A stretch of 17,987 bases of DNA. It comes from Candidatus Zixiibacteriota bacterium. Its GTDB lineage: Bacteria; SM23-81. The notes below the pieces were generated by a model, which did no database searches, had not been told where the DNA came from, and worked only from the letters and a program-made list of their open reading frames with translations. The stretch spans positions 1 to 17,987 of the forward strand of contig DAOVRJ010000015.1 of the NCBI GenBank assembly GCA_030628225.1, given 5' to 3'. Of this stretch, positions 277-17,847 are shown piece by piece. A program made the position numbers and the translations under genes. How positions within the stretch are numbered: the first letter of the stretch is position 1; every line of letters begins with the position of its first letter.

Positions 277-319
277 GAGGAGGTATACAAACTCAGATGT
301 AGAAAAATAGAATGAGGCG

Positions 320-1515: not shown

Positions 1516-1527
1516 TCGATAACGTTA

Positions 1528-3405
1528 ATGGGAAATAATGCCATGGCCAAGCGAAGTTTACTCAGTCCATTAAAGTCAGTCAGATATCTTTTTAAGAAAC
1601 CGAAGACGTTGAGGTATCCGTTTGAGCTGAAGGAACCCGCACAAAGATACAGGGGTTTTCATCTCAACGATTGGGAAAAGTGTACGGGTTGCGGGAACTG
1701 CGCTGATATTTGTCCCAACGAGGCGATCAACATGGTCGAAATATCCGAGTTAGAACCCAAACTCGGGGAAAAAAACGAGAGGCCGCAATTGGATTATGGA
1801 CGATGCTGTTTCTGCGGCTTGTGTGTGGATATATGCCCTCCAGGCTCCCTGCGGCTTTCCAGGGACTATTTTCACATACACTTTGACACAGATACTTTTG
1901 TATTCATCCCCAAGGACGAAAAAACGGATAAGGAAAAATTTCTCCCCCCCGGAAAATATTCGGTGTTAAAAGCAAGCCTGTCGCACAGAAAAGAGGATTA
2001 TGAAGGGTTTGCTTCTGATCTTCGATATACCCTGTTTGAGCCTGAGCGTGTGCAAATGCCTGAAGTACCACCAGAGGAAAGGAAACTCTCCTTTATCGAG
2101 CAGGTCATCGGGTACAATAAGGAAGAGGCCAAGAGAGAGGCGGCACGCTGTCTTGAGTGTAAGCTCTGCGAGGAGGCATGTCCGGCACATATGAAGATCT
2201 CCGAATATATTCAGGCCATTTACGAAGACAAGCCCGAAGAGTCCTTGAAAAAAATATTCGAGGACAATCCCATTCCTTCCATCTGTGGAAGGATCTGTAT
2301 GAGATATTGCGAGGACGCCTGCTCATTGCGGCTGAGGGGTGAAGCTTTGGCCATAAGATGGCTTAAGAGATACGTTGCAGATACCATTAAGGACTATGAG
2401 ACAGCATTAGAACTGAGTCCAGCAGAATCCACCGGCAAAAAGATCGCTGTAATCGGTGCCGGACCAAGTGGCTTGGCGGTTGCCTACTTTTTGGTTTTGT
2501 CAGGACATAAGATTTTGGTATTTGATGATTTACCTGGTGGAGGCGGTATGTTGCGCATCGGGCCACCGCTCTATCGGTTACCCATTGAAAGCATTGATAA
2601 AGATGTAAACTATATAGCCTCTTTGGGGGTCGAATTCAAGTTCAGTACCAATGTCGGTCAAGACTTATTGTTTGAAGATCTCCTAAGGGATTATGATGCG
2701 CTTTACTTAGGAATCGGAACCACAGTGAGCCGTTCGACAAAGGTGAAAAATTTTGAAAAGTGCCTATTGGCCCTTGATTTCCTGAAAGACAATAAAATTG
2801 GAGAGAAACGCAAAGTAGGAAAAGAAGTAATCGTTATCGGTGGTGGAAATGTGGCCATGGATGTAGCTCGAGAGACTTTGAGACTTCAGAATATGCAATA
2901 TCCGGATGAAAAGGTGAGCACAAAGACGGTTTCCCTGGAGGATTGGGATATCATGCCGGCCACTGAAGAGGAAATCGAAGAGGCAAAGGTTGAAGGAATA
3001 CAATTCAATCCCGGTTGGGGCCCCAAAGAGGTTAATTTGGATGAGAAAGGCCATGTCAAAGGGCTTCTCTGCATGAAGGTAAAATCTGTGTTCGATGATC
3101 AGGGGAAATTTGCACCGACCTTTTATGAAAAAGAGGAAATGCTTCTGGAAGGCGACATGATCATCGAGGCCATTGGACAGGCGCCGGATTTTTCATTCAT
3201 ATCCGAAAAGCTTTTTGATAAACTTGAATTTACCGAAATGAGGAAGGTAAAAGTCGATGAGAATGGGATGACCTCCATCCCCGGAGTTTTCGCCGGGGGG
3301 GACATCGTCAACACCAATTTAGATGCGGTCACGGCAATTGCCGATGCAAAGATTGCTTCGGAAGGTATTAACAGATATTTTATTAAGGGTATAAAAAATC
3401 CTTGA
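1528..3405 (+). CDS. NuoI-like ferredoxin fused to GltD/NfnB-type FAD/NAD(P) oxidoreductase
   Basis: The 625-residue protein has two parts. Residues 1-110 resemble complex I NuoI, with a RYRG block at 40-43 and two 4Fe-4S motifs (C52-C55-C58-C62P and C93-C96-C99-C103P). Residues from about 185 to the end match the small subunit of glutamate synthase, NfnB and dihydropyrimidine dehydrogenase. That part carries two more Fe-S motifs (C208-C211-C214-C218P and C253-C257-C261-C265), FAD-binding GAGPSG at 310-315, NAD(P)-binding GGGNVAMD at 438-445, and C-terminal GVFAGGDIVN at 587-596. The likely role is electron transfer between NAD(P)H or ferredoxin and a membrane complex formed with the NuoC/D-like neighbours, in place of NuoE/F/G. 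No glutamate synthase large subunit is nearby, so glutamate synthesis is unlikely. ATG 1528 is taken as start. ATG 1543 is an alternative, and neither has a strong Shine-Dalgarno. Confidence 0.88.
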   Translation: MGNNAMAKRSLLSPLKSVRYLFKKPKTLRYPFELKEPAQRYRGFHLNDWEKCTGCGNCADICPNEAINMVEISELEPKLGEKNERPQLDYGRCCFCGLCVDICPPGSLRLSRDYFHIHFDTDTFVFIPKDEKTDKEKFLPPGKYSVLKASLSHRKEDYEGFASDLRYTLFEPERVQMPEVPPEERKLSFIEQVIGYNKEEAKREAARCLECKLCEEACPAHMKISEYIQAIYEDKPEESLKKIFEDNPIPSICGRICMRYCEDACSLRLRGEALAIRWLKRYVADTIKDYETALELSPAESTGKKIAVIGAGPSGLAVAYFLVLSGHKILVFDDLPGGGGMLRIGPPLYRLPIESIDKDVNYIASLGVEFKFSTNVGQDLLFEDLLRDYDALYLGIGTTVSRSTKVKNFEKCLLALDFLKDNKIGEKRKVGKEVIVIGGGNVAMDVARETLRLQNMQYPDEKVSTKTVSLEDWDIMPATEEEIEEAKVEGIQFNPGWGPKEVNLDEKGHVKGLLCMKVKSVFDDQGKFAPTFYEKEEMLLEGDMIIEAIGQAPDFSFISEKLFDKLEFTEMRKVKVDENGMTSIPGVFAGGDIVNTNLDAVTAIADAKIASEGINRYFIKGIKNP

Positions 3406-3431
3406 CAAAGCGTTGTTTGCGGTGTTATAAT
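3402..3431 (+). promoter_or_regulatory. consensus extended -10 sigma70-type promoter of the hydrogenase operon
   Basis: TTGACA (3402-3407) and TATAAT (3426-3431) are exact consensus hexamers separated by 18 bases. TG at 3423-3424 adds an extended -10. The -35 box overlaps the TGA stop (3403-3405) of the preceding gene. A start of transcription is expected near A3437/A3438, about 42 bases before the preferred GTG 3480. No operator-like inverted repeat is obvious around it, so expression may be largely constitutive. Read-through from region 1 is also possible because I see no terminator between the two clusters. Confidence 0.88.
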
Positions 3432-3479
3432 GTTTTAACATGACTTGTGAAAAATTTCTCAAGCCGGCAGGAAATGCCC

Positions 3480-4526
3480 GTGAAGGTTTTAAAGACCAAT
3501 CGCGAGAAGTTTGAGCTTTTCCTCGAGAAAATCGTTGGGGATGGTGTATTATATGCCAACGTGGAGGACGAAGAAGGCCAGATTCATTTCGAGAAGCTTC
3601 TTCTCGATCAGCTAAGCAGGGTTACCCTGGGGAAGGCCAGGGCCCTGGAGACGTCCAAAGCCTTTTTCTTCACCCCGCGAACCAAAGTGGCTGAGTATCC
3701 CTCGTCTTCCGCCCAGGAGATCACGGCTACGAAGATGACCGTGCTGGGTCTCAAAGCCTGTGGCCTGAGGGCGCTTCAGATACTGGACCGGGTATTCATG
3801 GATGACATCACGGATCCGTTTTACCAGGCCAGAAGGAAGAACAGCACCATCATCACCTGTGATTGCACCGAGCCTTGGGAGACCTGTTTCTGCACCGAGA
3901 TGGGCCATTTGCCTTATCCCGAATCCGGATTCGACCTGAACATCTCGGTTTCAAACGGCCAGATTTTGGTAGAGGTGGGTACCAAGAAGGGCGATGCTCT
4001 GGTGGCGGAGCACTCTGGATTGTTCGCCGATGCCGATAAAACCTTACTGCAGCAGAGGGAGGCTAAGCGCAAAGCAACAGTTCAACGTGTGAAGAAGATC
4101 AACGAGCGTTTCGGCATCTCCGTTCCGTATCAAAAACAGGTTAAGGAATACCTGGACAGCCCGGCCTGGAAAAAGCAGGGATTAGCTTATTCCTGTGTGG
4201 AGTGTGGAGCATGCACCCATGTGTGTCCAACCTGCCGTTGCTTCTTGCTCTTCGATCAAAAGAAGGGAGACCATGCCGAGCGAGCCATGGTCTGGGACGT
4301 CTGTTTTTATCCCGGATACTGGCGCATGGCCGGAAAGCTCACCCCCAAACCAAGACTTTTAGACCGCTTCCAGAACCGCTTTTCCTGCAAGTTTGATTAT
4401 TTTGTAGATAACTACGAGGCCATTGCCTGTACAGGATGCGGCCGGTGCATAGAGGCCTGTATGGGCAAGATAGATATTCGCCAGTGTCTCAGCGAGATTC
4501 AAAAGCTGGAGAAGTCCCCTGCATAG
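3480..4526 (+). CDS. HydB/AsrA-like 4Fe-4S protein (sulfhydrogenase beta-type)
   Basis: The 348-residue iron-sulfur protein belongs to the family of archaeal sulfhydrogenase beta subunit (HydB) and anaerobic sulfite reductase subunit A. The C-terminal part has a dicluster domain: C239-C242-C245-C249P and C317-C320-C323-C327. A third cysteine group, CDCTEPWETCFC (127-138), fits the family's additional Fe-S site. It probably relays electrons between the flavoprotein encoded next and the hydrogenase iron-sulfur chain. The open frame extends up to GTG 3447, but that start would lie about 9 bases from the predicted transcript start with no Shine-Dalgarno. GTG 3480 has AGGA at 3469-3472 at suitable spacing and gives the family-like N-terminus MKVLKTNREKFELFLEK. 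ATG 3474 is less likely. First gene of the 18-gene operon, followed after 16 bases by its HydG-like partner. Confidence 0.87.
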   Translation: MKVLKTNREKFELFLEKIVGDGVLYANVEDEEGQIHFEKLLLDQLSRVTLGKARALETSKAFFFTPRTKVAEYPSSSAQEITATKMTVLGLKACGLRALQILDRVFMDDITDPFYQARRKNSTIITCDCTEPWETCFCTEMGHLPYPESGFDLNISVSNGQILVEVGTKKGDALVAEHSGLFADADKTLLQQREAKRKATVQRVKKINERFGISVPYQKQVKEYLDSPAWKKQGLAYSCVECGACTHVCPTCRCFLLFDQKKGDHAERAMVWDVCFYPGYWRMAGKLTPKPRLLDRFQNRFSCKFDYFVDNYEAIACTGCGRCIEACMGKIDIRQCLSEIQKLEKSPA

Positions 4527-4542
4527 AGGGTTGGTTTCTCAT

Positions 4543-5367
4543 ATGGCCAAGGTACAAAACCCATATTTTCCGCAAGAAGCTGAGATCCTCGAGGTGATCG
4601 AGGAGACGCCGACCATTAAGACCTTTGTGCTTCGATCGCAGGAGCCCATACCTTTTAAGGCTGGCCAGTTTATGGAGCTCACCGTTCCGCAGCTGGGTGA
4701 AGCCCCGTTTACGCCCTCCTCTTCTCCCCATAAACCGGAGCGGATGGAGATCACCATCCTGCGTACGGGAACGGTGACCGATGCCCTGCACCAGATGAAA
4801 GCAGGTCAGCTGGTGGGCCTAAGAGGACCTTTTGGCAAGGGATATCCGGTGCAGAAATTTTACGGCAAGGAGGTCCTGGTGGTTGGTGGGGGTGTCGGAT
4901 TGGCGCCCTTGAGGTCTTTACTCTACACCTTGTTTCACAACATCGACAAATTCAAGAGGGTTTCCATAAAGTATGGAGCTCGCCAGCCTGAGGAGCTCTG
5001 TTTCCAGAGAGAGTTCGAGAAATGGGGGAAGTTGGAGGGTGCGGACATGGATGTGACCATCGATGTGCCTGCACCCGGCTGGACCGGAAAGGTGGGTCTG
5101 GTGACCACCCTGCTGGATGATCTGGACCTGGATTTGAAGAGCTGCTACGTGGTCTCCTGCGGGCCAGATGTGATGCTTAAATTCGTCACCCTTAAATTGC
5201 TGGATGTGGGATTCCGGCCCGAGCAGATTTATCTGTCCATGAACCGGAATATGAGTTGTGGTGTAGGCAAGTGTGGGCACTGTGTCGTTGGTCGCTATTT
5301 TCTATGCAAGGATGGGCCGGACATGAACTACGCTGATGTCATGGACGTACCCGGCCTTTTTGGATAG
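4543..5367 (+). CDS. HydG/AsrB-like FAD/NAD(P)H-binding oxidoreductase
   Basis: This 274-residue protein of the ferredoxin-NADP reductase superfamily matches the sulfhydrogenase gamma subunit and anaerobic sulfite reductase subunit B. The N-terminal beta-barrel (about 1-105) would hold FAD. GGGVGLAPLRSL (115-126) is the nucleotide-binding loop and CGPDVM (206-211) the conserved NAD(P) motif. The C-terminus has a 2Fe-2S motif C239-xxxx-C244-xx-C247 with C255. With the preceding HydB-like protein it should form an NAD(P)H diaphorase, the entry or exit point for pyridine nucleotide electrons, acting in the cytoplasm on the membrane complex. ATG 4543 is preferred, with GAGGG at 4526-4530. The TTG at 4531 directly abuts that ribosome-binding site. 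Cofactor preference (NADH or NADPH) cannot be decided. Confidence 0.88.
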   Translation: MAKVQNPYFPQEAEILEVIEETPTIKTFVLRSQEPIPFKAGQFMELTVPQLGEAPFTPSSSPHKPERMEITILRTGTVTDALHQMKAGQLVGLRGPFGKGYPVQKFYGKEVLVVGGGVGLAPLRSLLYTLFHNIDKFKRVSIKYGARQPEELCFQREFEKWGKLEGADMDVTIDVPAPGWTGKVGLVTTLLDDLDLDLKSCYVVSCGPDVMLKFVTLKLLDVGFRPEQIYLSMNRNMSCGVGKCGHCVVGRYFLCKDGPDMNYADVMDVPGLFG

Positions 5368-5381
5368 GGCAAGAGGTGATC

Positions 5382-7217
5382 ATGGCTTCATCGAAAGTCA
5401 ACAGCACCAGAACCATCTGTCCTTTCTGCTCGCTGCAGGATTGGCTCAAGCTGCGGTGGAGTCGTTCTACCGCGCGTTTTACCAAGGATTCTTTCATCTC
5501 CGTTGATTACGATGCGCAAAATTCCATCAACGAGGGATCCCTGTGTCCTCGGGGAAATGCCGTAGCAGAGCTAGTTGATCACCCCCAACGGCTCATCTGT
5601 CCTTGCCTGAACGGGCAGGATGTCGATTGGGAGGAGGCATTTTCTCACGCGGCCAGTTCCCTGAAGGACCTGGCCAGGAAGCATGGTCCTGAGGCTGTGG
5701 GGGTCCTGGCCGGAGGTGGGTTGACTCTGGGGGAGGCCCTGAGCCTGGAAAAGCTAGCCCGGGAGGTTTTGAAAACTCCTTATGTGGCACCCCTTTTTCC
5801 CGATGATAGCGCCGTCTTTCACAGTTTGGCCCGTCTGGGTTGGGATGTGGGTTTTAGCCTGAAAGATCTTCAGGAGCGTCAGGTGATCCTTCTGGTAGGG
5901 GATGTGTTCACAGAACATCCGGTAATCTCCAAACGGATTCTGCGGGCTAAATACAAAGATCGAGGGCATCGTCTCTTTGTCATCGATTCCATGGCCACCC
6001 CGACCACCTGGTTTGCCCATGAGCATCTTCAGCCCATCCCGGGCACAGAGGTTCTAGTTTTAGCAGGCATTGCCCAGATGCTCTCGGCCTCGGCCAGAGG
6101 AAATGCAGGGGAGTTTCCCCTAAAACTGGACCTGGGGGGCATCGCCAAGCGAACAGGTGTCTCCCAGGAGCAGATGGGTAAGGTGGCCTCGGCCTTGAGC
6201 TCTGCCTCGGATGGAGCCATTATCCAATCTAATCTATATGGTCACCAGGGCTTACCAGGAGCCTGCACTATTCTCGGGCATGCTCTGGCTCGCTTGGCAG
6301 GGGGTAAGTTCTCCTTTTTGCACCTTCCCGTATCCTGTAATAGTCGGGGGGTCTTTCAGGTTCTTTCCTCTGCAGAAAAAGGCCAGAAGGTCGTCTCCGG
6401 TCCCCAGATTTTAGAGATGGTGACTGAGGGCAAGATCAAGGGACTTTTGCTGTTTGGACTGGATCCCCTCTCGGCTGTGCCCTCGGAGAAATTGGCGGAG
6501 GTCCTGGGAAGGCTGGAATTTCTCCTGGTGGCGGATCTATTGCCGACAAATTCCACGCCGCTGGCTAACGTCCTTTTGCCGGCAGCCGCTGGACCCGAGA
6601 AAAGTGGACAGCTGCTGTATTTAAACGGTGAGAAGCAAGATTTTGAGTCTGCTATACCCGCTCCTGGCCTGGCCTGGCCCGAGAAGGATATCATCGAGAA
6701 TCTGGCCCGTAAACTATCTCCCAAACATGATTTGTCCGCCACTTCTCCAGAGATCGAGGAGAGATTGAAAGGGGGAGCTAAAACCCCCTGGATGGAGATG
6801 CTTGCAGAGGTGGAACCTGTTCTGGGCAAGAAGCTGTCTGCCGACGAGGGTAAAGAGACGGCCTATCCTCTCTTCCTGGTGCCAACCGCTGTGCCGGCTC
6901 ACCTGGGAGATGGTAGCCTCTCCAGGCATTTAAGCTGGGCGCAGAAAACCTGCGGCAGCCCCTGCATCTGGGCCAACGCCGCTCTAATGGAAAAGCTGAG
7001 GTTGGTAGAAGGAGCCCGGGTCCAGGTTTCTTCCAAAGCGGACAGGGCTATTTTCCCTCTGCTGCTGGACCGCAAACTGCCTGAAAATGTGATCGCCGCT
7101 CCGGCTCATTTTCCCCAGGTACGTAAGCTTTTTTCCTGGAAACTCGATTCCCAATATGGAGATCTGGAGCTGGGGCCTGAGCGAGTCTTGCTGTCCCTCC
7201 CGAAGGAGAGCGGTTGA
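5382..7217 (+). CDS. degenerate molybdopterin oxidoreductase-family (NuoG/FdhA-like) protein
   Basis: The 611-residue protein has the domain order of formate dehydrogenase-type enzymes without NuoG's N-terminal 2Fe-2S domain. It runs from an N-terminal 4Fe-4S segment, through MopB domains with a VLLPAAAGPEKSG block in the middle-late part, to a C-terminal molybdopterin-dinucleotide-binding barrel (roughly 500-600). The cluster motif is changed: C13PFC16 and C55PRG are kept, but the third cysteine position is Asp20. In the region where formate dehydrogenases carry the Sec/Cys-His catalytic pair (RLCHSP-like) there is only LFPDDSAVFHSLARLG, with no Cys. TGA use as Sec is not involved, as the frame has no internal TGA. 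It is therefore probably structural or electron-transferring, as in NuoG, rather than a formate dehydrogenase. ATG 5382 has AAGAGG at 5371-5376. It sits between the diaphorase genes and a HycB-like ferredoxin. Confidence 0.82.
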   Translation: MASSKVNSTRTICPFCSLQDWLKLRWSRSTARFTKDSFISVDYDAQNSINEGSLCPRGNAVAELVDHPQRLICPCLNGQDVDWEEAFSHAASSLKDLARKHGPEAVGVLAGGGLTLGEALSLEKLAREVLKTPYVAPLFPDDSAVFHSLARLGWDVGFSLKDLQERQVILLVGDVFTEHPVISKRILRAKYKDRGHRLFVIDSMATPTTWFAHEHLQPIPGTEVLVLAGIAQMLSASARGNAGEFPLKLDLGGIAKRTGVSQEQMGKVASALSSASDGAIIQSNLYGHQGLPGACTILGHALARLAGGKFSFLHLPVSCNSRGVFQVLSSAEKGQKVVSGPQILEMVTEGKIKGLLLFGLDPLSAVPSEKLAEVLGRLEFLLVADLLPTNSTPLANVLLPAAAGPEKSGQLLYLNGEKQDFESAIPAPGLAWPEKDIIENLARKLSPKHDLSATSPEIEERLKGGAKTPWMEMLAEVEPVLGKKLSADEGKETAYPLFLVPTAVPAHLGDGSLSRHLSWAQKTCGSPCIWANAALMEKLRLVEGARVQVSSKADRAIFPLLLDRKLPENVIAAPAHFPQVRKLFSWKLDSQYGDLELGPERVLLSLPKESG

Positions 7218-7218
7218 G

Positions 7219-7716
7219 TTGAACGAAAAGATTACCAGCCAAAAGGTTATCGTTCTCAATCTGGATTACTGCATCGGATGCCGCAGCTGCGCTTCCGCCT
7301 GCACCGAGAGTCACTATCAGCATCTCAATCTGGTTCATGGCCAGGTGGGAGAGCTGGCGGTTCTCCCGCACCATTGTCGCCACTGTCAGCAAGCGGCCTG
7401 CGTGGCTGCATGCCCAACTCAGGCCCTGGAGCAGGATGAGAACGGGGTCGTTCTTCGACACAACAGCCTGTGCGTTGGCTGTAGGTCCTGTGTGTACGCC
7501 TGTCCTTTCGGCGTCTTGGACGAAGAGCTTTTGCAGCATATTTCCGCGAAGTGTGACCTGTGTGTGGACCGCACCAGCCAAGGGCTTGAGCCCAGATGTG
7601 TGGCCACCTGCGTCTCCGGGGCGCTCACTTTTGAGGATTTGTCTGAGGTGTGGGAGGAAGGACGTCTGCAGGTGGGGTCGCGTATTATCTCTCGAAGCCC
7701 GTGGAAAAGAGCATAG
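7219..7716 (+). CDS. HycB/HydN-like ferredoxin with four 4Fe-4S motifs
   Basis: This 165-residue electron-transfer protein has 16 cysteines in four motifs: C18-C21-C24-C28, C53-C56-C61-C65, C85-C88-C91-C95 and C112-C115-C127-C131. That is the arrangement of HycB, HydN, CooF and the beta subunits of molybdopterin oxidoreductases. It likely links the molybdopterin-like protein and diaphorase to the hydrogenase. The frame is open further upstream (ATG 7156), but that start would overlap the previous gene by 62 bases. TTG 7219 follows the previous TGA by one base, has GGAGAG at 7205-7210, and places the first cluster at the usual distance from the N-terminus. The weak TTG start may lower its translation rate. 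Confidence 0.9.
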   Translation: MNEKITSQKVIVLNLDYCIGCRSCASACTESHYQHLNLVHGQVGELAVLPHHCRHCQQAACVAACPTQALEQDENGVVLRHNSLCVGCRSCVYACPFGVLDEELLQHISAKCDLCVDRTSQGLEPRCVATCVSGALTFEDLSEVWEEGRLQVGSRIISRSPWKRA

Positions 7717-7727
7717 AGGACGGATTC

Positions 7728-8663
7728 ATGGAAAGAGCGTTTTACCCTCTCGTTTATTTTCTTATTTTCCCCGGTTTTCTGTTCACCAGCATTATAGGAC
7801 TTTTAGCCAGCTGGGTGGACCGAAAAGTGACGGCACGGGTTCAGTGGCGGGTGGGACCTCCCTGGTATCAGCCATTCGTTGATATATTAAAGCTGATGGG
7901 CAAGGAGACCATCGTTCCCGCCGGGCACAAAGCCTCTTTTTTTCTCCTGGCGCCCTTATTGGGTCTGATAGGAGTAACGCTGGTTTCCACCATATTATGG
8001 GTGTTGAACCTGAACCCAGGCAGCAGTTTCGTGGGCGATCTGGTAGTGATCCTCTACCTGTTCACACTTCCCTCTTTGGCCGTGATCATTGGGGGGGCGG
8101 CTTCCAAGAACCCGTTGGGAGCCCTGGGGGCCAGCAGGGAGATGAAGCTCGTTTTAGGCTATGAGCTTCCTTTTCTCATCGCCATCTTTACCGTGGTCGT
8201 CAAGATCGGATCCATTCTGTTCCAGGACATTTTAGGTTTTCAACAGATCAACGGCATCATGCTCAGACATCCCTCGGGAATTATCGCCTTTGTGGTGGCC
8301 ATCATCTGTACTCAGGCCAAGCTGACCATGGTTCCCTTCGACATCCCCGAGGCCGAGCAGGAGATTTTGTCTGGACCATTTGTGGAGTACTCGGGTGCCC
8401 CGCTGGCCGTCTACAAGCTCACTCGAGCAATGATGCTGTTCACCCTGCCCGTTTTTCTGATCACCGTCTTTTGGGGCGGACTGCAGTTTTCCGGTTGGGA
8501 TCTGCTGTGGACCGTCCTTAAATATGTAGCCCTGTTGGTGATCATTATATTGATCAAAAATACAAACCCCAGGTTGAGGATCGATCAGGCCATGAGGTTT
8601 CTGTGGGGACCGGTAACGGTCCTGGCCATCCTGGGTATGGTGCTGGCGGTAGTGGGACTGTGA
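7728..8663 (+). CDS. NuoH/EchB/MbhM-like membrane subunit
   Basis: A 311-residue, strongly hydrophobic protein of the complex I subunit 1 family, with about eight membrane segments. Signatures include DRKVTARVQWRVGPPW (31-46), QPFVDILKLMGKE (48-60), ASREMKLVLGYELP (135-148) and PFDIPEAEQEILSGPF (203-218) followed by VEYSG. These acidic loops form the cavity beneath the large/small subunit interface, and the first segment of the coupling path in respiratory complex I and group 4 hydrogenases. The subunit anchors the peripheral arm to the antiporter modules. ATG 7728 is chosen with AGAGGA at 7715-7720; the ATG at 7650 would overlap the ferredoxin gene by 67 bases. No missing motif is evident. 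Confidence 0.95.
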   Translation: MERAFYPLVYFLIFPGFLFTSIIGLLASWVDRKVTARVQWRVGPPWYQPFVDILKLMGKETIVPAGHKASFFLLAPLLGLIGVTLVSTILWVLNLNPGSSFVGDLVVILYLFTLPSLAVIIGGAASKNPLGALGASREMKLVLGYELPFLIAIFTVVVKIGSILFQDILGFQQINGIMLRHPSGIIAFVVAIICTQAKLTMVPFDIPEAEQEILSGPFVEYSGAPLAVYKLTRAMMLFTLPVFLITVFWGGLQFSGWDLLWTVLKYVALLVIIILIKNTNPRLRIDQAMRFLWGPVTVLAILGMVLAVVGL

Positions 8664-8712
8664 ACTTCGCTGACCGGCGTTTGTTAAAGTGTAAAACTCT
8701 TGGAGAACAACA

Positions 8713-9126: not shown

Positions 9127-9154
9127 GGATACCCGGCCACTTTAAGGTGATTCT

Positions 9155-10773: not shown

Positions 10774-10775
10774 TC

Positions 10776-12608
10776 ATGAATTCTTTGCTATGGCCCATAG
10801 TGGTTCCCGCCGTCGCCGGGTTTTTATGTCTGCTCATTCCCCGGAGAGTTCGGGTTGTCCGGGAGGTTTTGGCTCTGGTGGCTACCGTGTGGACCTTCGT
10901 GGTGGCCATCCAGATCTTTCGGGGTGGAGAATACTTCCTGCAGCAGGATTGGCTGCAGTTCGGCTCTTTCGCTGTGGCCTTTGACCTGAGAGCCTACCAG
11001 TTCAGCTCTTTTGTGCTGATGTTCATCGGCTTCTTCGGGCTGGTCGTGGCCAGCTATTCGGCTGCCTACATGGCCAAGAGCGATGTTGGAAAGCGCTATT
11101 ACACTTATCTGCTGTGGACGGTAGCTGCTGCATCTGGTGTGGTGTTATCAGACAACCTTATGATACTATTGATGTTTTGGGAAATTGCCACCATCCTGTT
11201 CTACCTCTTGGTTACCCTGGGAGGAACCAAGCAGTCCAGCGCGGCTGCACGCAAGAGTTTCACTATTCTGGGATTTTCCGATTGCGCTCTGCTGTTGGGA
11301 ATTGTTTTCCTATGGGCTATCGGTGGCAGTCTCAGCATCAGCCATTTGAGCGTAAAGTTGGGCAGTGGCTTTGCTTATATCACCTTTATCCTCTGTGCCG
11401 TGGGCGCTTTGGCCAAGGCTGGCGCCTGGCCGGTTCATTCTTGGGTGCCGGCCGCAGCCGAGGGCGCGCCCACGCCGGTGATGGCTTTTCTGCCAGCCTC
11501 TCTGGACAAGCTGCTGGGAATTTACCTGCTGGCCAGATTGTCCTTGGATCTGTTTATCATGGATCGGGCAATGGGGTTGGTGCTGATGATCTTGGGCGCT
11601 ATTACCATTATTTTTGCGGTGATGATGGCCCTGGTGCAGCATGATCTGAAGAAGCTACTCTCGTTCCACGCCGTGAGTCAGGTGGGCTATATGGTATTAG
11701 GCATCGGCACCGGAGTGCCCATCGGCATCATGGGCGGCTTGTTCCATATGGTGAACAACGCCATCTATAAAACCTGCCTTTTCCTGAGCGCTGGCGCCGT
11801 GGAGAAACGCGCTAAAACCACCGATCTGGTAAAGCTGGGAGGATTGGCCTCGGCCATGCCGGTGACCTTCGGGGTCACCGTCATTGCATCCTTATCAATA
11901 TCAGGGGTGCCACCTTTCAATGGATTTTTCTCTAAGTGGTTAATTTATCAAAGCCTCGTCTCTATTCAGCAGCCTATCTTTCTTATTGCGGCCATGTTCG
12001 GCAGTGCCCTGACCCTGGCCTCCTTCATCAAGGTGCTCTATTCCGTATTTTGGGGGGAGAGGCCCAAGAAGCTCCATGGAATCAAGGAAGTGGGTTTTCT
12101 GATGGCCTGGCCCATGGTGGCCTTGGCTCTGCTTTGTGTCCTTTTCGGGTTCGCGGCTCAGTACCCCCTGCAGAAGTTCATCGGTCCTGTGGTGGGCTTC
12201 AATTTCGAGGGCGTACCGGAGAAGGTCAGCATGGTAAATGCTCTGTGGAGTCCAACCTTAGCCACCGCGCTGATGATCGTGGGTCTGATGGTGGGGCTGA
12301 TCATATATCTGCTGGGTCGGGTCGGCCGTAGACGCGAGGCCCGCGCTTTCATCGGCGGAGAGGTGTTAGATACAGATCAGACTCGGGTGGCGGGAACCGG
12401 TTTCTACGATACGATTCGGAATTTAAGCGGCTTTCGAGGGGTCTATAACGATGCCGATAAGGGTGTGTTTGACCCGTATTTTCTGGGAGGTAAACTGGGC
12501 GCCAAGCTGGTGAGAGCTCTGCAGGATTTACACGACGGCGTTCTATCCTCTTATCTCTCATGGAGCCTGATTGGTCTGGGTATTCTGCTCTTTTTAATGA
12601 TGATGTGA
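10776..12608 (+). CDS. NuoL/HyfB-like proton/sodium antiporter-type membrane subunit
   Basis: A 610-residue polytopic membrane protein with the proton-antiporter M domain. Visible landmarks are Glu136 in LLMFWEIAT, Lys214 in GALAKAGAWPVHSWVP with the following PAAAEGAPTPV, and the later block HDLKKLLSFHAVSQVGYM, which holds the second half-channel residues. These charged residues form the ion path in NuoL/MrpA/HyfB. A C-terminal extension (FIGGEVLDTDQ onward) ends in one more hydrophobic helix, as in hydrogenase-linked NuoL-like proteins. With the next gene it supplies what MrpA does in one polypeptide. ATG 10776 lies 3 bases after the previous stop with GAAGGG upstream. Whether it moves Na+ or H+ cannot be told. 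Confidence 0.93.
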   Translation: MNSLLWPIVVPAVAGFLCLLIPRRVRVVREVLALVATVWTFVVAIQIFRGGEYFLQQDWLQFGSFAVAFDLRAYQFSSFVLMFIGFFGLVVASYSAAYMAKSDVGKRYYTYLLWTVAAASGVVLSDNLMILLMFWEIATILFYLLVTLGGTKQSSAAARKSFTILGFSDCALLLGIVFLWAIGGSLSISHLSVKLGSGFAYITFILCAVGALAKAGAWPVHSWVPAAAEGAPTPVMAFLPASLDKLLGIYLLARLSLDLFIMDRAMGLVLMILGAITIIFAVMMALVQHDLKKLLSFHAVSQVGYMVLGIGTGVPIGIMGGLFHMVNNAIYKTCLFLSAGAVEKRAKTTDLVKLGGLASAMPVTFGVTVIASLSISGVPPFNGFFSKWLIYQSLVSIQQPIFLIAAMFGSALTLASFIKVLYSVFWGERPKKLHGIKEVGFLMAWPMVALALLCVLFGFAAQYPLQKFIGPVVGFNFEGVPEKVSMVNALWSPTLATALMIVGLMVGLIIYLLGRVGRRREARAFIGGEVLDTDQTRVAGTGFYDTIRNLSGFRGVYNDADKGVFDPYFLGGKLGAKLVRALQDLHDGVLSSYLSWSLIGLGILLFLMMM

Positions 12609-12636
12609 GCCGGTTGAGCTGGAGGAAGACAAGCAG

Positions 12637-13200
12637 ATGCTGGTGCTGATTAGTCTATTGGTCTTTATAAACCTGGGTGCGATTATCGCCATTGAGAGCA
12701 AGTACCTGCTCTCCACGGTGATCTCCATAGGTGCTGTCGGATTTGGGTTGAGCATTGTATTCCTGCTTTTGGGAGCGCCGGACCTGGCCATTACCCAGGT
12801 GGTGGTGGAGATTCTTATCTTGATCATCCTGATTCGGGGAACGGTTACCCTGGACAACACGGCTATCGAGAAATACCGGGACACCTTCGCCATGGTGATC
12901 AGCCTGATATTCTTCGGGATGTTTCTCACCTTCGCCTATATGGCTTTCAAGGCCCTGCCCGAGTTCGGTCATCCCCTGATGAGAGTCTCTCGAGAATATC
13001 TGCAGCATGGTGTGGAGAAGACCGGTGCTACCAATATCGTCATGTCCATAATCTTGGACTATCGGGCCTACGATACCCTGGGCGAGGCCACCGTTTTGTT
13101 CACCGCCATCTTGGGGGCTTTTGTGGTGCTCAGGAGGAAGGGGCGCAAGAAGATTGGAGAGAAAGACACTACCAAGGTGGGCATTCCCGGCGAGTTTTAA
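12637..13200 (+). CDS. MrpA C-terminal-type protein (MbhD and MbhE fused)
   Basis: This 187-residue membrane protein corresponds to the C-terminal part of MrpA. Residues 1-70 match the DUF4040/MbhD unit (GAPDLAITQVVVE with Asp49 and Glu58). Residues about 85-168 match the MbhE unit (MSIILDYRAYDTLGEATV with Asp141, Asp146 and Glu150). In Pyrococcus-type Mbh these are two genes, while in Mrp operons they are the tail of MrpA, so this is an intermediate arrangement. About five or six membrane helices are expected. The acidic residues are candidates for the ion path. ATG 12637 has GGAGGA at 12621-12626. It is followed by MrpB, the normal Mrp order. Confidence 0.9.
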   Translation: MLVLISLLVFINLGAIIAIESKYLLSTVISIGAVGFGLSIVFLLLGAPDLAITQVVVEILILIILIRGTVTLDNTAIEKYRDTFAMVISLIFFGMFLTFAYMAFKALPEFGHPLMRVSREYLQHGVEKTGATNIVMSIILDYRAYDTLGEATVLFTAILGAFVVLRRKGRKKIGEKDTTKVGIPGEF

Positions 13201-13218
13201 TTTGACAAGGAGCTCGAG

Positions 13219-13725
13219 GTGACCCAGGAACCAGAAGGTATGACCTTGATCGTCAAGAGCATCGGGAGATTGGTGATCAACTTCATCATGCTGTTCGGAA
13301 TATACATCATTTTATATGGGCATCTGTCACCCGGTGGAGGGTTTCCTGGAGGAGTGATCGTGGCCACAGCCTTCATCTTGTTGATGCTGTCCTTTGGCCG
13401 GAAAACGGCCCTGCGCAAGTTCGGGGACACCACAGCTTCCCTGCTGGACAATTTTGCGGCCCTGTCTTTTTTGACCATTGGTTTTCTAGGTCTTATAGGC
13501 GGATATTTCTTCTTGAACTTCATCGATCGCGGGATCCCTTTCCAGCTTTTTAGCGCCGGAACTATCCCTCTGGCCAACATAGCCATCGGGCTGAAGGTGT
13601 CGGCCTGCCTGTATGCGGTTTTCGTGGCTTTGGCTATATTTGGCAAGGTCCTGGCTGGCCCGGAGCAGGACGGTGTAGGGCCAGCCGAAGAGAAGCCAAC
13701 AGATTCAGGAGAACACAGGCGATGA
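13219..13725 (+). CDS. mrpB: Na+/H+ antiporter subunit B (MrpB/MbhF)
   Basis: A 168-residue membrane protein with the MrpB hallmark GHLSPGGGFPGGVI (34-47) at the end of a helix, followed by several hydrophobic segments and a charged cytoplasmic tail. MrpB is part of the ion-translocating arm of Mrp antiporters and of Mbh/Mbx complexes. GTG 13219 is taken as start because AAGGAG at 13207-13212 sits at good spacing. Met8 (ATG 13240) would be the alternative and leaves the first helix intact. Its TGA overlaps the ATG of mrpC by 4 bases. Confidence 0.93.
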   Translation: MTQEPEGMTLIVKSIGRLVINFIMLFGIYIILYGHLSPGGGFPGGVIVATAFILLMLSFGRKTALRKFGDTTASLLDNFAALSFLTIGFLGLIGGYFFLNFIDRGIPFQLFSAGTIPLANIAIGLKVSACLYAVFVALAIFGKVLAGPEQDGVGPAEEKPTDSGEHRR

Positions 13726-14072
13726 TCGTTTACCTGTTGTGCAGTTTTCTTTTTGTCTTGGGCCTGTATTGCCTGGTGGCCAAGAAGAACATCATCAAGA
13801 AGATCATCGGTATCATCACCATGGAGTACTCGGTCAACCTGTTTCTCGTCTTGGTGGGATACAGGGCTCGAGGAATTGCACCTATTCTATCTAAGGGAGC
13901 CGATAAGGCCGAATTCATAGCCAAGAGCGTCGACCCCCTGCCTCAGGCCCTGGTTCTTACCGCCATCGTCATCGGTCTGGGGACCATCGCCCTTATGGTG
14001 GCCATCTGTATCCGTCTGTACGAGCGTTATGGAACCTTTGATATGACCGAGATACGAAGACTGAGAGGTTGA
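13722..14072 (+). CDS. mrpC: Na+/H+ antiporter subunit C (MrpC/MbhG, NuoK-like)
   Basis: A 116-residue, three-helix membrane protein of the NuoK/MrpC family. Glu35 in IITMEYSVNLFLV corresponds to the conserved helix-2 glutamate used in proton transfer in NuoK. The C-terminal helix (QALVLTAIVIGLGTIALMVA) is also characteristic. It sits between the antiporter-like subunits in Mrp and complex I. Start ATG 13722 overlaps the mrpB stop as ATGA, with AGGAGA at 13707-13712, so translation is probably coupled. Confidence 0.94.
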   Translation: MIVYLLCSFLFVLGLYCLVAKKNIIKKIIGIITMEYSVNLFLVLVGYRARGIAPILSKGADKAEFIAKSVDPLPQALVLTAIVIGLGTIALMVAICIRLYERYGTFDMTEIRRLRG

Positions 14073-14112
14073 CCCTGGGCGTTTGGCCAAGATTTTGGAG
14101 GAGCCAGAGTCG

Positions 14113-15585
14113 ATGAACCATATTCTTCCCCTGTTTGTCGCTGTACCGCTGGGAACGGCCTTCATAATACTCATCCTGGCCAAGGTGTGGAGAAAAGCCG
14201 GAGTTCCTTTTGCTTTGCTCACCTCCATCTGCCTGGTGATTTTTTCTGTCTCCGTTATTGGCCAGGCCAGCATCTATCGTATGGGCAACTGGCCACCGCC
14301 CTGGGGCATCGTTTTGGTCCTCGACGGACTGAGCACACTTCTGCTTTTAACCATCAGCGTGATCAGCTTTTTTGCCCTCCTTTTCTCCATTCGGTACATG
14401 GACCGATATACGGCCAAGCCGAAATTTTACGCCCTGTTCATGCTGTTAGTGGCCGGCATGAACGGTGTGGTTCTCAGCGGAGACTTTTTCAACCTGTTTG
14501 TCTTTCTGGAAATTGCCTCCATCGCCTCCTATGCCTTGGTTGCCTTCGGCTGTGAGGAAGAGGAACTGGAGGCTTCCTTCAAGTATCTGATCCTCAGCGG
14601 AGTGGCCTCTACCTTCATTCTGTTAGGCATCGCCATTCTATACAGCCTTACCGGGACCCTGAACATGGCGGACGTAGCCCGGACCATCGGCAACATGCCT
14701 GCCAACAACGCCGTGCTATTCGCCATCTCCATGTTTCTCATGGGATTCGGTCTTAAGGCGGCCCTGGTCCCCTTTCATCCCTGGTTGCCCGACGCCCATC
14801 CCGCGGCGCCGGCGCCCATCTCAGCAATGTTGTCGGGAGTGCTGATTAAAGCACTGGGCATGTACGTTTTGATCCGGTTGATCTTCAACGTCTTCGGTCT
14901 TTCTCCGTTCCTCTCCAGTGTGCTCATGATCCTGGGTGGTCTATCCATGGTGGTGGGAGGTTTGTTGGCCATTGGACAGGATGATCTGAAACGATTGCTG
15001 GCTTATTCCAGCATCAGCCAGATCGGCTATGTGGCTGTGGGCCTGGCCCTGGGTACCCCCCTGGGGATCATGGGTGGTCTGTTTCATCTGATCAATCATG
15101 CCACCTTTAAGTCCCTGTTGTTTTTGTCAGCAGGGGCCATTGAATACAGCACTGATACCAGAAAGCTGAGCAAGATGGGCGGGTTGAGCAATCGCCTGCC
15201 GGTGACTACCACTTCCGCAGCCATTGGCTTTTTGTCCATCTCCGGCATTCCACCCCTGAATGGGTTCTGGAGTAAGCTGATCATCATCATCGCTCTGGTC
15301 CAGGCCGGCCATTACATTCTCGCCTCTGTGGCGGTGCTGGTCAGCTTTCTGACCATCCTCTACTTCATGAGGGTCCAGCGCCATCTGTTCTTCGGGGATT
15401 TGCCGGCCAAGCTGGCCAAGATAACGGAGGTGCCCTATCTCATGCGGGTCTCGCTGGTGTTGCTGGCCATCATGTGTCTGGCCATGGGGCTGCTTTATCC
15501 CTTCCTGTCCGGCACTATTCTGGACCCGGCACGAGATGTGATCTTGGAAGGCACTGCCTACGTGCACAGGGTTTTCGGCGTTTAG
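14113..15585 (+). CDS. mrpD: Na+/H+ antiporter subunit D (MrpD/MbhH, NuoN-like)
   Basis: A 490-residue polytopic antiporter-like subunit, the second in the operon beside the NuoL-like protein at 10776. Glu133 in FVFLEIASIASYAL, Lys215 in GFGLKAALVPFHPWLPDAHP and Lys246 in GVLIKALGM are the charged residues of the central ion path. QDDLKRLLAYSSISQIGY is the family block of the second half-channel. PAAPAPISAMLSG is typical of MrpD. The frame is open back to TTG 14083, but ATG 14113 has a strong GGAGGA Shine-Dalgarno ending near 14102 and starts directly at the first membrane helix, so I chose it. Confidence 0.94.
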   Translation: MNHILPLFVAVPLGTAFIILILAKVWRKAGVPFALLTSICLVIFSVSVIGQASIYRMGNWPPPWGIVLVLDGLSTLLLLTISVISFFALLFSIRYMDRYTAKPKFYALFMLLVAGMNGVVLSGDFFNLFVFLEIASIASYALVAFGCEEEELEASFKYLILSGVASTFILLGIAILYSLTGTLNMADVARTIGNMPANNAVLFAISMFLMGFGLKAALVPFHPWLPDAHPAAPAPISAMLSGVLIKALGMYVLIRLIFNVFGLSPFLSSVLMILGGLSMVVGGLLAIGQDDLKRLLAYSSISQIGYVAVGLALGTPLGIMGGLFHLINHATFKSLLFLSAGAIEYSTDTRKLSKMGGLSNRLPVTTTSAAIGFLSISGIPPLNGFWSKLIIIIALVQAGHYILASVAVLVSFLTILYFMRVQRHLFFGDLPAKLAKITEVPYLMRVSLVLLAIMCLAMGLLYPFLSGTILDPARDVILEGTAYVHRVFGV

Positions 15586-15613
15586 GAAGGTCTGAGAGAG
15601 AGGGACGACAGAG

Positions 15614-16102
15614 ATGGCCAACAGAATTTTCCAGTTTCTGATCATCTTCATTCTCTGGCTGCTGCTCACCTGGTCTCTGACTGTGCAGGAGATCATCGTG
15701 GGCGTAGTGGTTGCCTTGCTGCTGAGCATATTGCTCTCTGACGTCTTTGTTCGGGGAGGGGGGAAATTTGTCCAGCCGGCGCGCTACTTCTGGTTTCTGG
15801 TCTATCTGCCGCTTTTCTTCTACTATGTGTTCCGCGCCAACTTTGATGTGGCCTACCGTGTGCTTCATCCGGAGATGCCCATTAGGCCGGGCATCGTCAA
15901 GGTGCGCACTACCCTGAAAAGCGATATGGCAAAAGCCTTTCTGGCGAATTCCATCACCCTGACCCCGGGCACCTTGACCGTGGACATCGTCGGTGATCAC
16001 CTATATGTGCACTGGATCAACATCGTGACCGAGGACCCGCAGGAGGAGACGGAGGTTATCGTCAGGAAGTTCGAGGGTTACCTGAGGAGAATTTTCGAAT
16101 GA
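15614..16102 (+). CDS. mrpE: Na+/H+ antiporter subunit E (MrpE/MbhA)
   Basis: A 162-residue protein with two or three N-terminal membrane helices and a cytoplasmic C-terminal domain. The MrpE signature NSITLTPGTLTVDI followed by LYVHWINI is clear near residues 115-137. It has a structural role in Mrp antiporters and Mbh-type hydrogenases. Start ATG 15614 follows a purine-rich GAGAGAGGGA stretch (15595-15604). Its stop overlaps the start of mrpF as ATGA. Order E-F-G after D matches the standard Mrp operon. Confidence 0.94.
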   Translation: MANRIFQFLIIFILWLLLTWSLTVQEIIVGVVVALLLSILLSDVFVRGGGKFVQPARYFWFLVYLPLFFYYVFRANFDVAYRVLHPEMPIRPGIVKVRTTLKSDMAKAFLANSITLTPGTLTVDIVGDHLYVHWINIVTEDPQEETEVIVRKFEGYLRRIFE

Positions 16103-16353
16103 TCGTGCTGATTATCCTTTTAGTCCTCTGCTGTTTTATGTGCCTGTACCGCATCGGCGCCGGCCCCACTCCACCGGACCGAACCGTAGGTATAGACACC
16201 CTGGGCACTTTGGTGGTCGGTTTTTGTGCCTTCACGGCCATCATCACAGGCAAAGAATGGTACATGAACGTGGCCATTTCCTGGGCTTTGCTGAGCTTTA
16301 TCGGCACCATCGCCCTGGCCAAGTTTTTGGAGGGAAGGGGATTCGATGAGTGA
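16099..16353 (+). CDS. mrpF: Na+/H+ antiporter subunit F (MrpF/MbhB)
   Basis: An 84-residue, three-helix membrane protein with the MrpF motif GAGPTPPDRTVGIDTL (21-36), including the conserved Asp that is proposed to be part of the Na+ path. It overlaps mrpE by 4 bases and mrpG by 8, so the three are very probably co-translated. A GAGGAGA ribosome-binding site at 16084-16090 precedes ATG 16099. Confidence 0.94.
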   Translation: MIVLIILLVLCCFMCLYRIGAGPTPPDRTVGIDTLGTLVVGFCAFTAIITGKEWYMNVAISWALLSFIGTIALAKFLEGRGFDE

Positions 16354-16684
16354 GATCATCGGCATCGTGGTCATCTCCATGGGAGTGGCCTTTGATCTAT
16401 TCGGGTGTATCGGGCTGGTTCGGCTTCCAGACATCTACAATCGCCTTCAGGGAGCCACAAAGTGCGTGACCCTGGGAACCTGTTTGATCCTGCTGGGAGT
16501 TCTGATTCATTCCGGGGGTGCCATGGGCGCCAAGGCTTTGCTCTGTGCCATCTTTATTCTGTTGACTTCACCCACAGGTGCTCATGCCCTGGCCAGAGGT
16601 GCTCATAAGTCCGGAGTTAAACTCTGGGAAGGAAGCGTGATGGACAAGTACGCCGATGATAAAGAGGGAGAGCTGGATCGGTAA
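16346..16684 (+). CDS. mrpG: Na+/H+ antiporter subunit G (MrpG/MbhC)
   Basis: A 112-residue protein with three membrane helices and the MrpG motif GLVRLPDIYNRLQGATKCV (22-40), in which LPD-Y-RL and ATK are conserved. A charged C-terminal tail follows the last helix. ATG 16346 is preceded by GAAGGGG and overlaps the end of mrpF by 8 bases. It completes the set of Mrp subunits in this operon. Confidence 0.94.
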   Translation: MSEIIGIVVISMGVAFDLFGCIGLVRLPDIYNRLQGATKCVTLGTCLILLGVLIHSGGAMGAKALLCAIFILLTSPTGAHALARGAHKSGVKLWEGSVMDKYADDKEGELDR

Positions 16685-16702
16685 TTCTGGGAGGTTGACC
16701 GT

Positions 16703-17317
16703 TTGAGAAAGCCCAAGCTGAGGGAGCTAAAAGAGGCCATCACGGCCGTTATTAAGGGGCCCTATACCAGCAAATTCCCCAAGGAGCCCGCCGTGGTGTC
16801 GGAACGTTTCCGCGGCCTGCCTAAATATCATGAGGATGATTGTGTCCTCTGCGGGGCCTGTGCGGAGGTCTGTCCACCGGGAGCCATCGAGATGATCCAG
16901 GAGCGCCTTGAGGATGGAACTGCGAAACGGCGCATGGTGCTCCATTATGATATCTGTATTTTCTGCGGTCAGTGTCAGCGAGCCTGCATCACAGATAAGG
17001 GAATCATTCTCAGCAACGAATTCGACTTGGCCCTCTTTGATCACACAGAGGCTCTGGAGACGGTGGAGGACGAGCTGCTGGTCTGTGAGGTCTGTGGTGA
17101 GTTCATAACCAGCCGCAAGCACGCTCTGTGGATTGCCCGGAAGCTGGGGCCCATTGCCTACGCTAACCCCAATTTGATCTTGGCTTCTCAGGAGGAGTTG
17201 GGTTTGGTGGACGAGATTGGACCCAGACCAGAGAGACCTTTAAAAAGAAACGACAACATGCGGTTTCTGTGCCCGCGCTGCCGGCGGAATTTAATTCAGA
17301 CGGATGAGTGGGGATAG
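16703..17317 (+). CDS. NuoI/HycF/MbhN-like ferredoxin subunit with C-terminal CxxC pair
   Basis: This 204-residue peripheral-arm iron-sulfur protein has a NuoI-like core with two 4Fe-4S motifs, C47-C50-C53-C57P and C85-C88-C91-C95. It relays electrons to the small subunit's proximal cluster. After the core, residues 128-131 (CEVC) and 190-193 (CPRC) form two CxxC knuckles about 60 residues apart, which could bind zinc or iron as a ribbon or rubredoxin-like site. NuoI itself lacks this extension; HycF-type proteins may carry something comparable. TTG 16703 is the start, with GGGAGG at 16689-16694. Its position after mrpG, distant from the other hydrogenase genes, resembles the mbh order, where mbhN is last. 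Confidence 0.92.
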   Translation: MRKPKLRELKEAITAVIKGPYTSKFPKEPAVVSERFRGLPKYHEDDCVLCGACAEVCPPGAIEMIQERLEDGTAKRRMVLHYDICIFCGQCQRACITDKGIILSNEFDLALFDHTEALETVEDELLVCEVCGEFITSRKHALWIARKLGPIAYANPNLILASQEELGLVDEIGPRPERPLKRNDNMRFLCPRCRRNLIQTDEWG

Positions 17318-17320
17318 ATC

Positions 17321-17791
17321 GTGGTCCTGGCCCAGTTGAGAGAGTGCCTGCGGGGAAAGGTGGTTATCGTCGGAGTAGGTAACTCCTTGAGGGGTGACGA
17401 TGGGTTGGGACCTTGTTTGATCCAACAGCTGCGCAGGAGGGTGACAGCACCTCTTTTTGACTGTGGTTCGGTGCCGGAGAATTTTCTGGGCCCTATCCGC
17501 CGTCAGCATCCAGACACAATTCTGGTGCTGGATGCCGCTGATTTCTCAGCGGACCCTGGTGAGGTGAGGATTTTCGATTCGAATACCTGGCGAGGTGGAG
17601 GGCTGTCCACACATAATTTTTCCCTGGATTTATTTGCCGATCTTCTGGTTGAGAGCACAGGTGCCCGGGTGTATCTGCTAGCTGTTCAACCGAAACAAAT
17701 TGGGTTTGGTCAGGCCATGAGTACCGAGGTGAAAGAGGGTTGCCGAAAGCTCCGGCAATGGTTGTTGTCCTCCCTGGGTGACCAGAGTTGA
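17321..17791 (+). CDS. hydrogenase maturation protease (HycI/HyaD family)
   Basis: This 156-residue Ni-dependent endopeptidase removes the C-terminal tail of a [NiFe]-hydrogenase large subunit once the NiFe centre is inserted. GVGNSLRGDDGLG (18-30) is the family N-terminal motif; the DD at 26-27 is of HycI type, where HybD has DE. Asp71 in LVLDAADF and His98 in STHNF complete the expected nickel-contacting set. Its natural substrate is the large subunit at 9583, which has a 35-residue tail after DPCxxCxxR. GTG 17321 is the start, 3 bases after the ferredoxin stop. Last gene of the operon, 30 bases before the terminator. Confidence 0.94.
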   Translation: MVLAQLRECLRGKVVIVGVGNSLRGDDGLGPCLIQQLRRRVTAPLFDCGSVPENFLGPIRRQHPDTILVLDAADFSADPGEVRIFDSNTWRGGGLSTHNFSLDLFADLLVESTGARVYLLAVQPKQIGFGQAMSTEVKEGCRKLRQWLLSSLGDQS

Positions 17792-17820
17792 TTGCGTCTC
17801 CCATAGTGCTGTTCACTTGT

Positions 17821-17847
17821 GATCTGCCTGCGGGCAGATTTTTTATT
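17821..17847 (+). terminator. intrinsic terminator closing the hydrogenase operon
   Basis: A perfect 7-bp stem, ATCTGCC (17822-17828) with GGCAGAT (17833-17839), encloses the loop TGCG. A run of T follows (17839-17844, then ATT). G17821 and T17840 can add a wobble pair. It lies 30 bases after the protease stop codon, as expected for a Rho-independent terminator on the + strand. Confidence 0.9.

Follow-up and report, generated by a model that had tools for sequence, protein, structure and literature searches.

The window analysed here is a stretch of 17,987 nucleotides from the Candidatus Zixiibacteriota assembly GCA_030628225.1 (contig DAOVRJ010000015.1). It carries an operon in which the genes of a group 4 NiFe hydrogenase are combined with those of a diaphorase, a molybdoenzyme-like (Mo-like) protein and an Mrp antiporter arm. 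A first-pass annotation had proposed 18 genes running in a single direction between one promoter and one terminator. All 18 were found intact on the + strand (3447–17791), with intergenic spacing of −8 to +49 bp, and domain profiles bore out the proposed gene identities. Both flanking signals were located, and both are kept in the sister genome Zixibacteria SM23_81, whose NuoD is 88% identical to that of the window. The features of the operon are as follows.

3402–3431, +: promoter TTGACA-18-TATAAT with TG ahead of the −10 element; sigma-70-type, 12/12 match, same site in the sister genome (L118/L023)
3447–4526 (start likelier 3480), +: gene 1, HydB/AsrA-like iron-sulfur (Fe-S) protein (NF040829/NF040833)
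4531–5367, +: gene 2, HydG/AsrB-like FAD, NAD(P) and [2Fe-2S] diaphorase (profile matches)
5376–7217, +: gene 3, FdhA/NuoG-like protein without catalytic Cys/Sec-His (PF00384)
7219–7716 (start approximate), +: gene 4, HycB/CooF-like polyferredoxin (PF13247; 7z0s_B among the PDB matches)
7728–8663, +: gene 5, NuoH/MbhM/HycD-like (PF00146)
8713–9126, +: gene 6, NuoB/MbhJ/HycG-like small subunit, four invariant Cys (PF01058)
9155–9586, +: gene 7, NuoC/MbhK-like (PF00329)
9583–10773, +: gene 8, NiFe hydrogenase large subunit of the NuoD type (PF00346 and PF00374)
10776–12608, +: gene 9, NuoL/MbsH'/MrpA-N-like antiporter subunit (PF00361; PDB 7qru_D, 6cfw_H, 6u8y_X)
12637–13200, +: gene 10, fused MbhD and MbhE, equivalent to the MrpA C-terminal part (PF13244 and PF20501)
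13219–13725, +: gene 11, MrpB/MbhF (PF04039)
13722–14072, +: gene 12, MrpC/MbhG (PF00420; MrpC models)
14083–15585, +: gene 13, MrpD/MbhH (PF00361; 6cfw_H, E 5e-82)
15614–16102, +: gene 14, MrpE/MbhA (PF01899)
16099–16353, +: gene 15, MrpF/MbhB (PF04066)
16346–16684, +: gene 16, MrpG/MbhC (PF03334)
16703–17317, +: gene 17, NuoI/HycF-like, two 4Fe-4S motifs and an extra CxxC...CxxC (NF009053 across most of the protein)
17321–17791, +: gene 18, HycI-type maturation protease (TIGR00142/PF01750)
17821–17840, +: intrinsic-terminator-like hairpin followed by a T-run, kept in L023

From this layout the 18 genes are predicted to lie on one transcript. Among the stretches checked for a perfect promoter (the window, L023, L024 and L118), the single site outside the window occupies the corresponding position in Zixibacteria SM23_81, where the overlapping stretches L023 and L118 share one promoter site. 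The likelier translation start of hydB is 3480 (ribosome-binding-site-like AGGAAA; the promoter ends at 3431), and those of the HycB-like gene and nuoH are about 7219 and 7728, respectively. The genome of the window is a 2.34 Mb, 92%-complete assembly of 306 contigs, and few relatives from the same phylum were among the genomes compared.

Modules of the hydrogenase operon

The catalytic core has the composition of a group 4 energy-converting NiFe hydrogenase, with N- and C-terminal CxxC ligand motifs, NuoB-, NuoC-, NuoH- and NuoI-like partners and a maturation protease. The Ni-Fe ligands of gene 8 (C63xxC66 and C355xxC358) are kept in 89–90 of 90 homologues, and the proximal-cluster Cys residues of NuoB in all 86. 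About 35 residues follow the last ligand motif of gene 8, an extension that is likely cleaved. The best PDB matches of the large subunit are Mbh (6cfw_L) and then HycE (7z0s_E). In the large-subunit tree, the family forms one clade (41 rows, SH-aLRT 99) with Mbh outside it, and its sister group consists of HycE and two loci, L030 and L031, which likewise encode HydB/HydG (SH-aLRT 96–99). The HycE branch is long and the 4a references few; because the reference branches are long, we treat this placement as moderate evidence. The HycB- and HycF-like subunits fit an ancestry resembling formate hydrogenlyase (FHL). A viral-contig search with the large subunit gave no match. In L031, an in-frame TGA in the large-subunit gene (9610–10767, − strand) falls exactly where the N-terminal CxxC has its second Cys (ERICGI*GTVH) and is a probable selenocysteine codon.

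By sequence, genes 1 and 2 encode an NAD(P)H-type diaphorase module, with FAD and [2Fe-2S] in HydG and 4Fe-4S clusters in HydB. The best PDB matches of the two proteins are the beta and gamma subunits of Pyrococcus furiosus soluble hydrogenase I (SHI; 9nez_B, E 2e-41, and 9nez_C, E 2.5e-54); HydB has 15 invariant Cys in the homologue alignment, and the four cluster Cys of HydG are present in 78/78 homologues. This kinship, together with the complete retention of the Fe-S Cys residues, speaks for an enzyme that has NAD(P)H among its partners. The HycB-like, NuoI/HycF-like and NuoB subunits form an Fe-S relay, as read from their sequences. The second PDB match of gene 17 is 7z0s_F, and 12 of its Cys residues are invariant; its extra invariant CxxC...CxxC (C128, C131, C190 and C193) is a possible rubredoxin-like or Zn site. 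Nfn-like bifurcation was considered and is unsupported, because the operon encodes a single FAD protein and lacks a GltD-like partner; the window's GltD fusion is part of the upstream cluster.

An alternative is that the complex is an Mbh-like enzyme fed by ferredoxin only, through NuoI/HycB, while HydB/HydG serve a side reaction such as AsrAB-like sulfur or sulfite reduction. Ferredoxin is the donor of Mbh (PMC8415708), the HydDB entry for group 4g reads 'ferredoxin-coupled (putative)', with its role undetermined (PMC5037454), and HydB/HydG also match AsrA/AsrB models. However, profile annotation found no AsrC in the operon, HydB scores higher with sulfhydrogenase models than with AsrA, and in almost every intact locus HydB-HydG come immediately before the genes of the relay. 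We therefore consider this alternative unlikely and retain NAD(P)H input through the diaphorase.

All Mrp domains are accounted for when the membrane arm is set against the published correspondence table of MBH, MBS and Mrp subunits, and gene 9 supplies the MrpA-N/MbsH' part that is missing from MBH in that table (PMC8415708). Its PDB scores do not separate MrpA-N, NuoL and MbsH' as the closest relative. In both antiporter subunits (genes 9 and 13) the key lysines are invariant or nearly so. The glutamate of transmembrane helix 5 (TM5) is kept in gene 13, and the window gene 9 keeps it as Glu136; this site of gene 9 is Gly in 62 of the 76 family members aligned. Nine gene-13 rows also read G at the TM5 site, and these most likely come from gene 9 of truncated loci and not from MrpD. 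Glu or Asp occupies the gene 9 site in 6/7 loci bearing the Mo-like gene, versus 3/58 loci without it. This correlation is strong by the raw numbers but comprises only two to four independent contrasts and is not significant, so the association is a lead rather than a result; it suggests that the subtype found in the window keeps two complete pump units, and the TM5 Glu may mark a possible functional split of the family.

Known enzymes each share part of this inventory. P. furiosus MBH (group 4d) has the large subunit, the NuoH-type subunit and the MrpB-G/MbhD-H parts in common with the window, but lacks HydB/HydG, the HycB and Mo-like proteins and the NuoL/MbsH'-like subunit. The contrast with Mbh drawn in the first-pass annotation, namely that Mbh has no diaphorase, thus holds and extends to the NuoL-like subunit. 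With two antiporter subunits, HydB/HydG and a large subunit that branches with HycE, the window system falls outside 4d. In Escherichia coli FHL (4a), HycE belongs to the sister clade, and HycB, HycF, HycI and the FdhF-fold protein have counterparts in the window, whereas Mrp (as previously pointed out for Hyc/Hyf) and HydBG are missing. The FdhF-like protein of the window lacks the catalytic residues; with no catalytic Cys/Sec-His and no molybdenum cofactor (Moco) genes detected in its genome, the operon has no counterpart of the active formate dehydrogenase subunit of 4a. P. furiosus MBS/Mbx resembles the window operon in its two large antiporter subunits (H and H') and Mrp parts, but MBS has no NiFe site, whereas the operon keeps all four Ni ligands. 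P. furiosus SHI (group 3b) shares HydB and HydG homologues with the window, but it is a soluble enzyme that lacks a membrane arm and whose catalytic part belongs to group 3.

Gene order across phyla and relation to reported systems

When named genomes were scanned, 569 stretches were confirmed to encode a large-subunit relative, and the best 80 of these were kept; gene order was compared across 87 profile-annotated loci. By their titles, the relatives among these best 80 of 569 come from Omnitrophota, Bacteroidota, Cloacimonadota, Zixibacteria, Saganbacteria/Margulisbacteria, Planctomycetota, Nitrospirota, Latescibacterota, Desantisbacteria, Elusimicrobiota, Aerophobetes, Hydrogenedentes, Fermentibacteria, Spirochaetes, Clostridia and Chloroflexota. 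The same gene order recurs in dozens of genomes from more than twelve phyla. When the inserted Mo-like gene is ignored, an identical 16-gene core (HydB-HydG-HycB-NuoH-B-C-D-NuoL-MbhDE-MrpB-C-D-E-F-G-NuoI) is found in 41/87 loci, HycI comes next in 30 of these 41, and most non-matching loci are cut by contig ends. Judged by this shared order, the arrangement is far from chance, and its conservation over many phyla argues for one assembly.

The operon is modular: in L026, L080 and L115 the hydrogenase and HydBG genes stand without an adjacent downstream Mrp arm, and an Mbh-like cluster adjoins L115. Separate co-transcribed complexes, a hydrogenase-diaphorase and an independent Mrp antiporter, would agree with the Mrp-free L026 and L080 and with the canonical A to G order of the Mrp genes. 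In most loci, however, the hycF/nuoI-like gene and the protease follow downstream of Mrp, so that Mrp is embedded in the operon, and MBH and MBS are solved complexes with a built-in Mrp part. We regard two separate complexes as quite improbable and favour a single assembly.

The window operon does not represent a new kind of system. Its gene set was published in 2019 from Saganbacteria RX5A, as an 'enigmatic' group 4 NiFe region with Mrp, an unclassifiable molybdopterin oxidoreductase, cooF, asrA and asrB, whose hydrogenase is related to Zixibacteria and Omnitrophica sequences (PMC6349859). The inventory of RX5A matches that of the window by the description in the paper rather than gene by gene; our Saganbacteria relative (L075) carries the same set of NiFe group 4, Mrp, Mo-like, cooF, asrA and asrB genes as the window. 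Mrp-linked hydrogenases of Cloacimonadota and Omnitrophota are called group 4g in PMC8542988, in passages that do not mention diaphorase genes, and these phyla carry window-type operons (L053, L067 and L059); by the label of these relatives, the window hydrogenase would be of the loosely defined '4g' Mrp-linked kind. In Atribacteria, Mrp genes have been reported to flank a membrane-bound hydrogenase that has an oxidoreductase next to it (PMC6469976). This may be the system that the first-pass annotation called 'Hun'; the literature searched, the Atribacter paper included, does not use the word for a hydrogenase and has it only as a personal name, and no Atribacteria-titled locus is among the best 80 of 569 named relatives. 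New here are the optional and, in this lineage, almost certainly cofactor-free Mo-like subunit, the moderately supported placement of the large subunit as sister to HycE, the TM5 Glu pattern and an MBS-like cluster upstream.

The Mo-like subunit

The AlphaFold2 (AF2) model of gene 3 (pLDDT 83) has a formate dehydrogenase/nitrate reductase (FDH/Nap) fold, with Z scores of 28–32 (Foldseek, VIA-align). The Mo-like proteins of the operons form one clade (100/100) separate from true FDHs, and the catalytic Cys/Sec-His is absent in every in-operon member aligned. In the window and its nearest relatives, Asp replaces the third cluster Cys. The gene is optional, being present in 6/77 loci with a judgeable site, plus the window, and its product is the most or nearly the most divergent operon protein in each comparison.

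The first-pass annotation had called this protein a NuoG-like molybdopterin relic, a description that agrees with the active-site alignment and with the search for Moco genes. In four genomes with the Asp variant (G000, G001, G002 and G006; 92–98% complete), no MoaA over the cut-off, MoaC or MoeA was found. All three are present in G021 and G041, which lack the Mo-like subunit. The genomes of L069 and L108, in which the Mo-like subunit retains four Cys, have MoaC and MoeA; neither was found in the Saganbacteria genome (L075), and the small genome of L117 has MoeA and no MoaC match. Since the catalytic residues are missing and the genomes of the lineage have no MoaA, MoaC or MoeA, the sequence indicates that the subunit is almost certainly cofactor-free in the window organism. 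The question that PMC6349859 left open can thus be answered for this lineage: the operon can do without the Mo-like subunit, which here very likely carries no cofactor, a parallel to NuoG of complex I.

For an active Mo/W enzyme, acting on formate or another substrate in an Mrp-linked formate hydrogenlyase, one may cite the FDH fold, the PF00384 match, an invariant Asp close to the metal-ligand position and the Moco genes in the L069 and L108 genomes. Such activity is nevertheless highly improbable given the missing catalytic residues, the four Asp-variant genomes, the fast divergence of the protein and its absence from most relatives. Gene 3 has neither the catalytic Cys/Sec nor the Moco supply of a molybdenum bis-PGD (pyranopterin guanine dinucleotide) enzyme, and a role as formate dehydrogenase was rejected on the active-site alignment; we keep to the cofactor-free reading.

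Two Clostridia-titled genomes and an unclassified one carry, a few kb upstream of the operon, FDH-like genes whose Cys-His active site is intact (L049 349–2418, L055 756–3530 and L057 558–2627). They point to a possible formate link in that lineage.

Proposed function and genomic neighbourhood

We propose that the operon probably encodes an H2-evolving NAD(P)H/ferredoxin:H+ oxidoreductase, assembled as one membrane complex and coupled to H+ and Na+ translocation. This is close to the ion-coupled NAD(P)H/ferredoxin-linked hydrogenase suggested initially, which the modules and ligands read from the genes make the likely function; from these we infer the donors, the direction of pumping and the stoichiometry. 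NAD(P)H electrons would enter via HydG and HydB, and/or ferredoxin electrons at HycB or NuoI. At the NiFe site, the electrons would reduce protons to H2. NuoH and the arm would couple the free energy to outward H+ movement, with Na+ moved by the MrpE/F/G part. The Mo-like subunit, as a cofactor-free FDH relic, would be at most a scaffold or Fe-S relay holder. The genome context (HypD, RnfC and the K subunit of a V/A-type ATP synthase) was counted in favour of this proposal.

Several points weigh against it. Unless the H2 partial pressure is very low, the reduction of protons to H2 by NAD(P)H is uphill or near zero, which makes NAD(P)H by itself an unfavourable driver of pumping; were it the sole donor, the ion gradient might be spent on pushing electrons to H2, or the enzyme might run in reverse. 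The preference of the diaphorase for NAD or NADP is not readable from the sequence, and no biochemistry of any family member was found in the literature searched. In L026, the genes run from HydB to NuoD and then to NuoI and the protease with no adjacent Mrp genes, and the Mrp arm may therefore be separable in some lineages.

The complex might also operate in the uptake direction, with the Na+/H+ gradient driving H2 oxidation and the reduction of ferredoxin or NAD(P)+. Group 4 enzymes are reversible, and the genome also encodes Rnf and a V/A-type ATP synthase. No operon gene fixes the direction, and the known Mbh and FHL relatives evolve H2; uptake deserves some weight as a minority possibility, and H2 evolution remains our preferred direction.

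For the Mo-bearing subtype, we advance a more tentative idea, to which we give somewhat less than even credence. It would be an FHL-like machine in which the FDH, no longer holding a metal cofactor, turned into a scaffold or Fe-S relay, a sulfhydrogenase-type diaphorase took over the electron input, and a complete two-pump Mrp arm is attached: a 'hydrogenase complex I' interconverting NAD(P)H, H2 and a Na+ gradient. If so, its coupling stoichiometry would differ from that of the majority subtype, in which the Mo-like subunit and the TM5 Glu are both missing. More broadly, this operon type, with its strict gene order, is one of the foremost candidates for reductant disposal and sodium-gradient generation in many uncultured anaerobic phyla. 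As it combines modules of MBH, MBS, FHL and SHI, a single structure would tie these four together and have a bearing on how complex I arose.

The two genes ahead of the promoter (373–3405; window 1–3405) belong to a second cluster, Mrp-linked and complex-I-like but not a hydrogenase, of which the window has the 3' end. They encode a NuoD-like protein without Ni ligands, closest to MbsL of P. furiosus MBS (E 1e-102), and a NuoI-GltD fusion (PRK13984). In the sister genome, the full cluster (L118 1638–12733, reverse strand) comprises hyp genes, Mrp, two antiporter subunits, NuoH, NuoB, NuoC, a DUF59-like protein, NuoD without Ni ligands and the NuoI-GltD fusion. The true MBS relative in the window is thus this upstream cluster and not the hydrogenase operon, and because it ends right ahead of the operon, two Mrp-linked complexes are encoded back to back. 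Around positions 3000–4500, GC content rises from the ~0.45 of the upstream cluster to the ~0.54 of the hydrogenase operon, possibly reflecting different histories of the two.

Elsewhere, the genome encodes HypD and RnfC. The K subunit of the V/A-type ATP synthase (L128 1447–2160) has PGTQ, QGK and Glu residues, which we take to resemble the Na+ site of Enterococcus hirae NtpK. In genome G000, a further cluster (L125; G000:C228) encodes NuoF-like, NuoG/FdhA-like (without catalytic Cys), NfnA-like and GltD-like proteins. It may resemble the bifurcating Nfn-ABC of Caldicellulosiruptor (9bov), and a weak FeFe-hydrogenase-domain protein is encoded nearby (C228:12756–13442).

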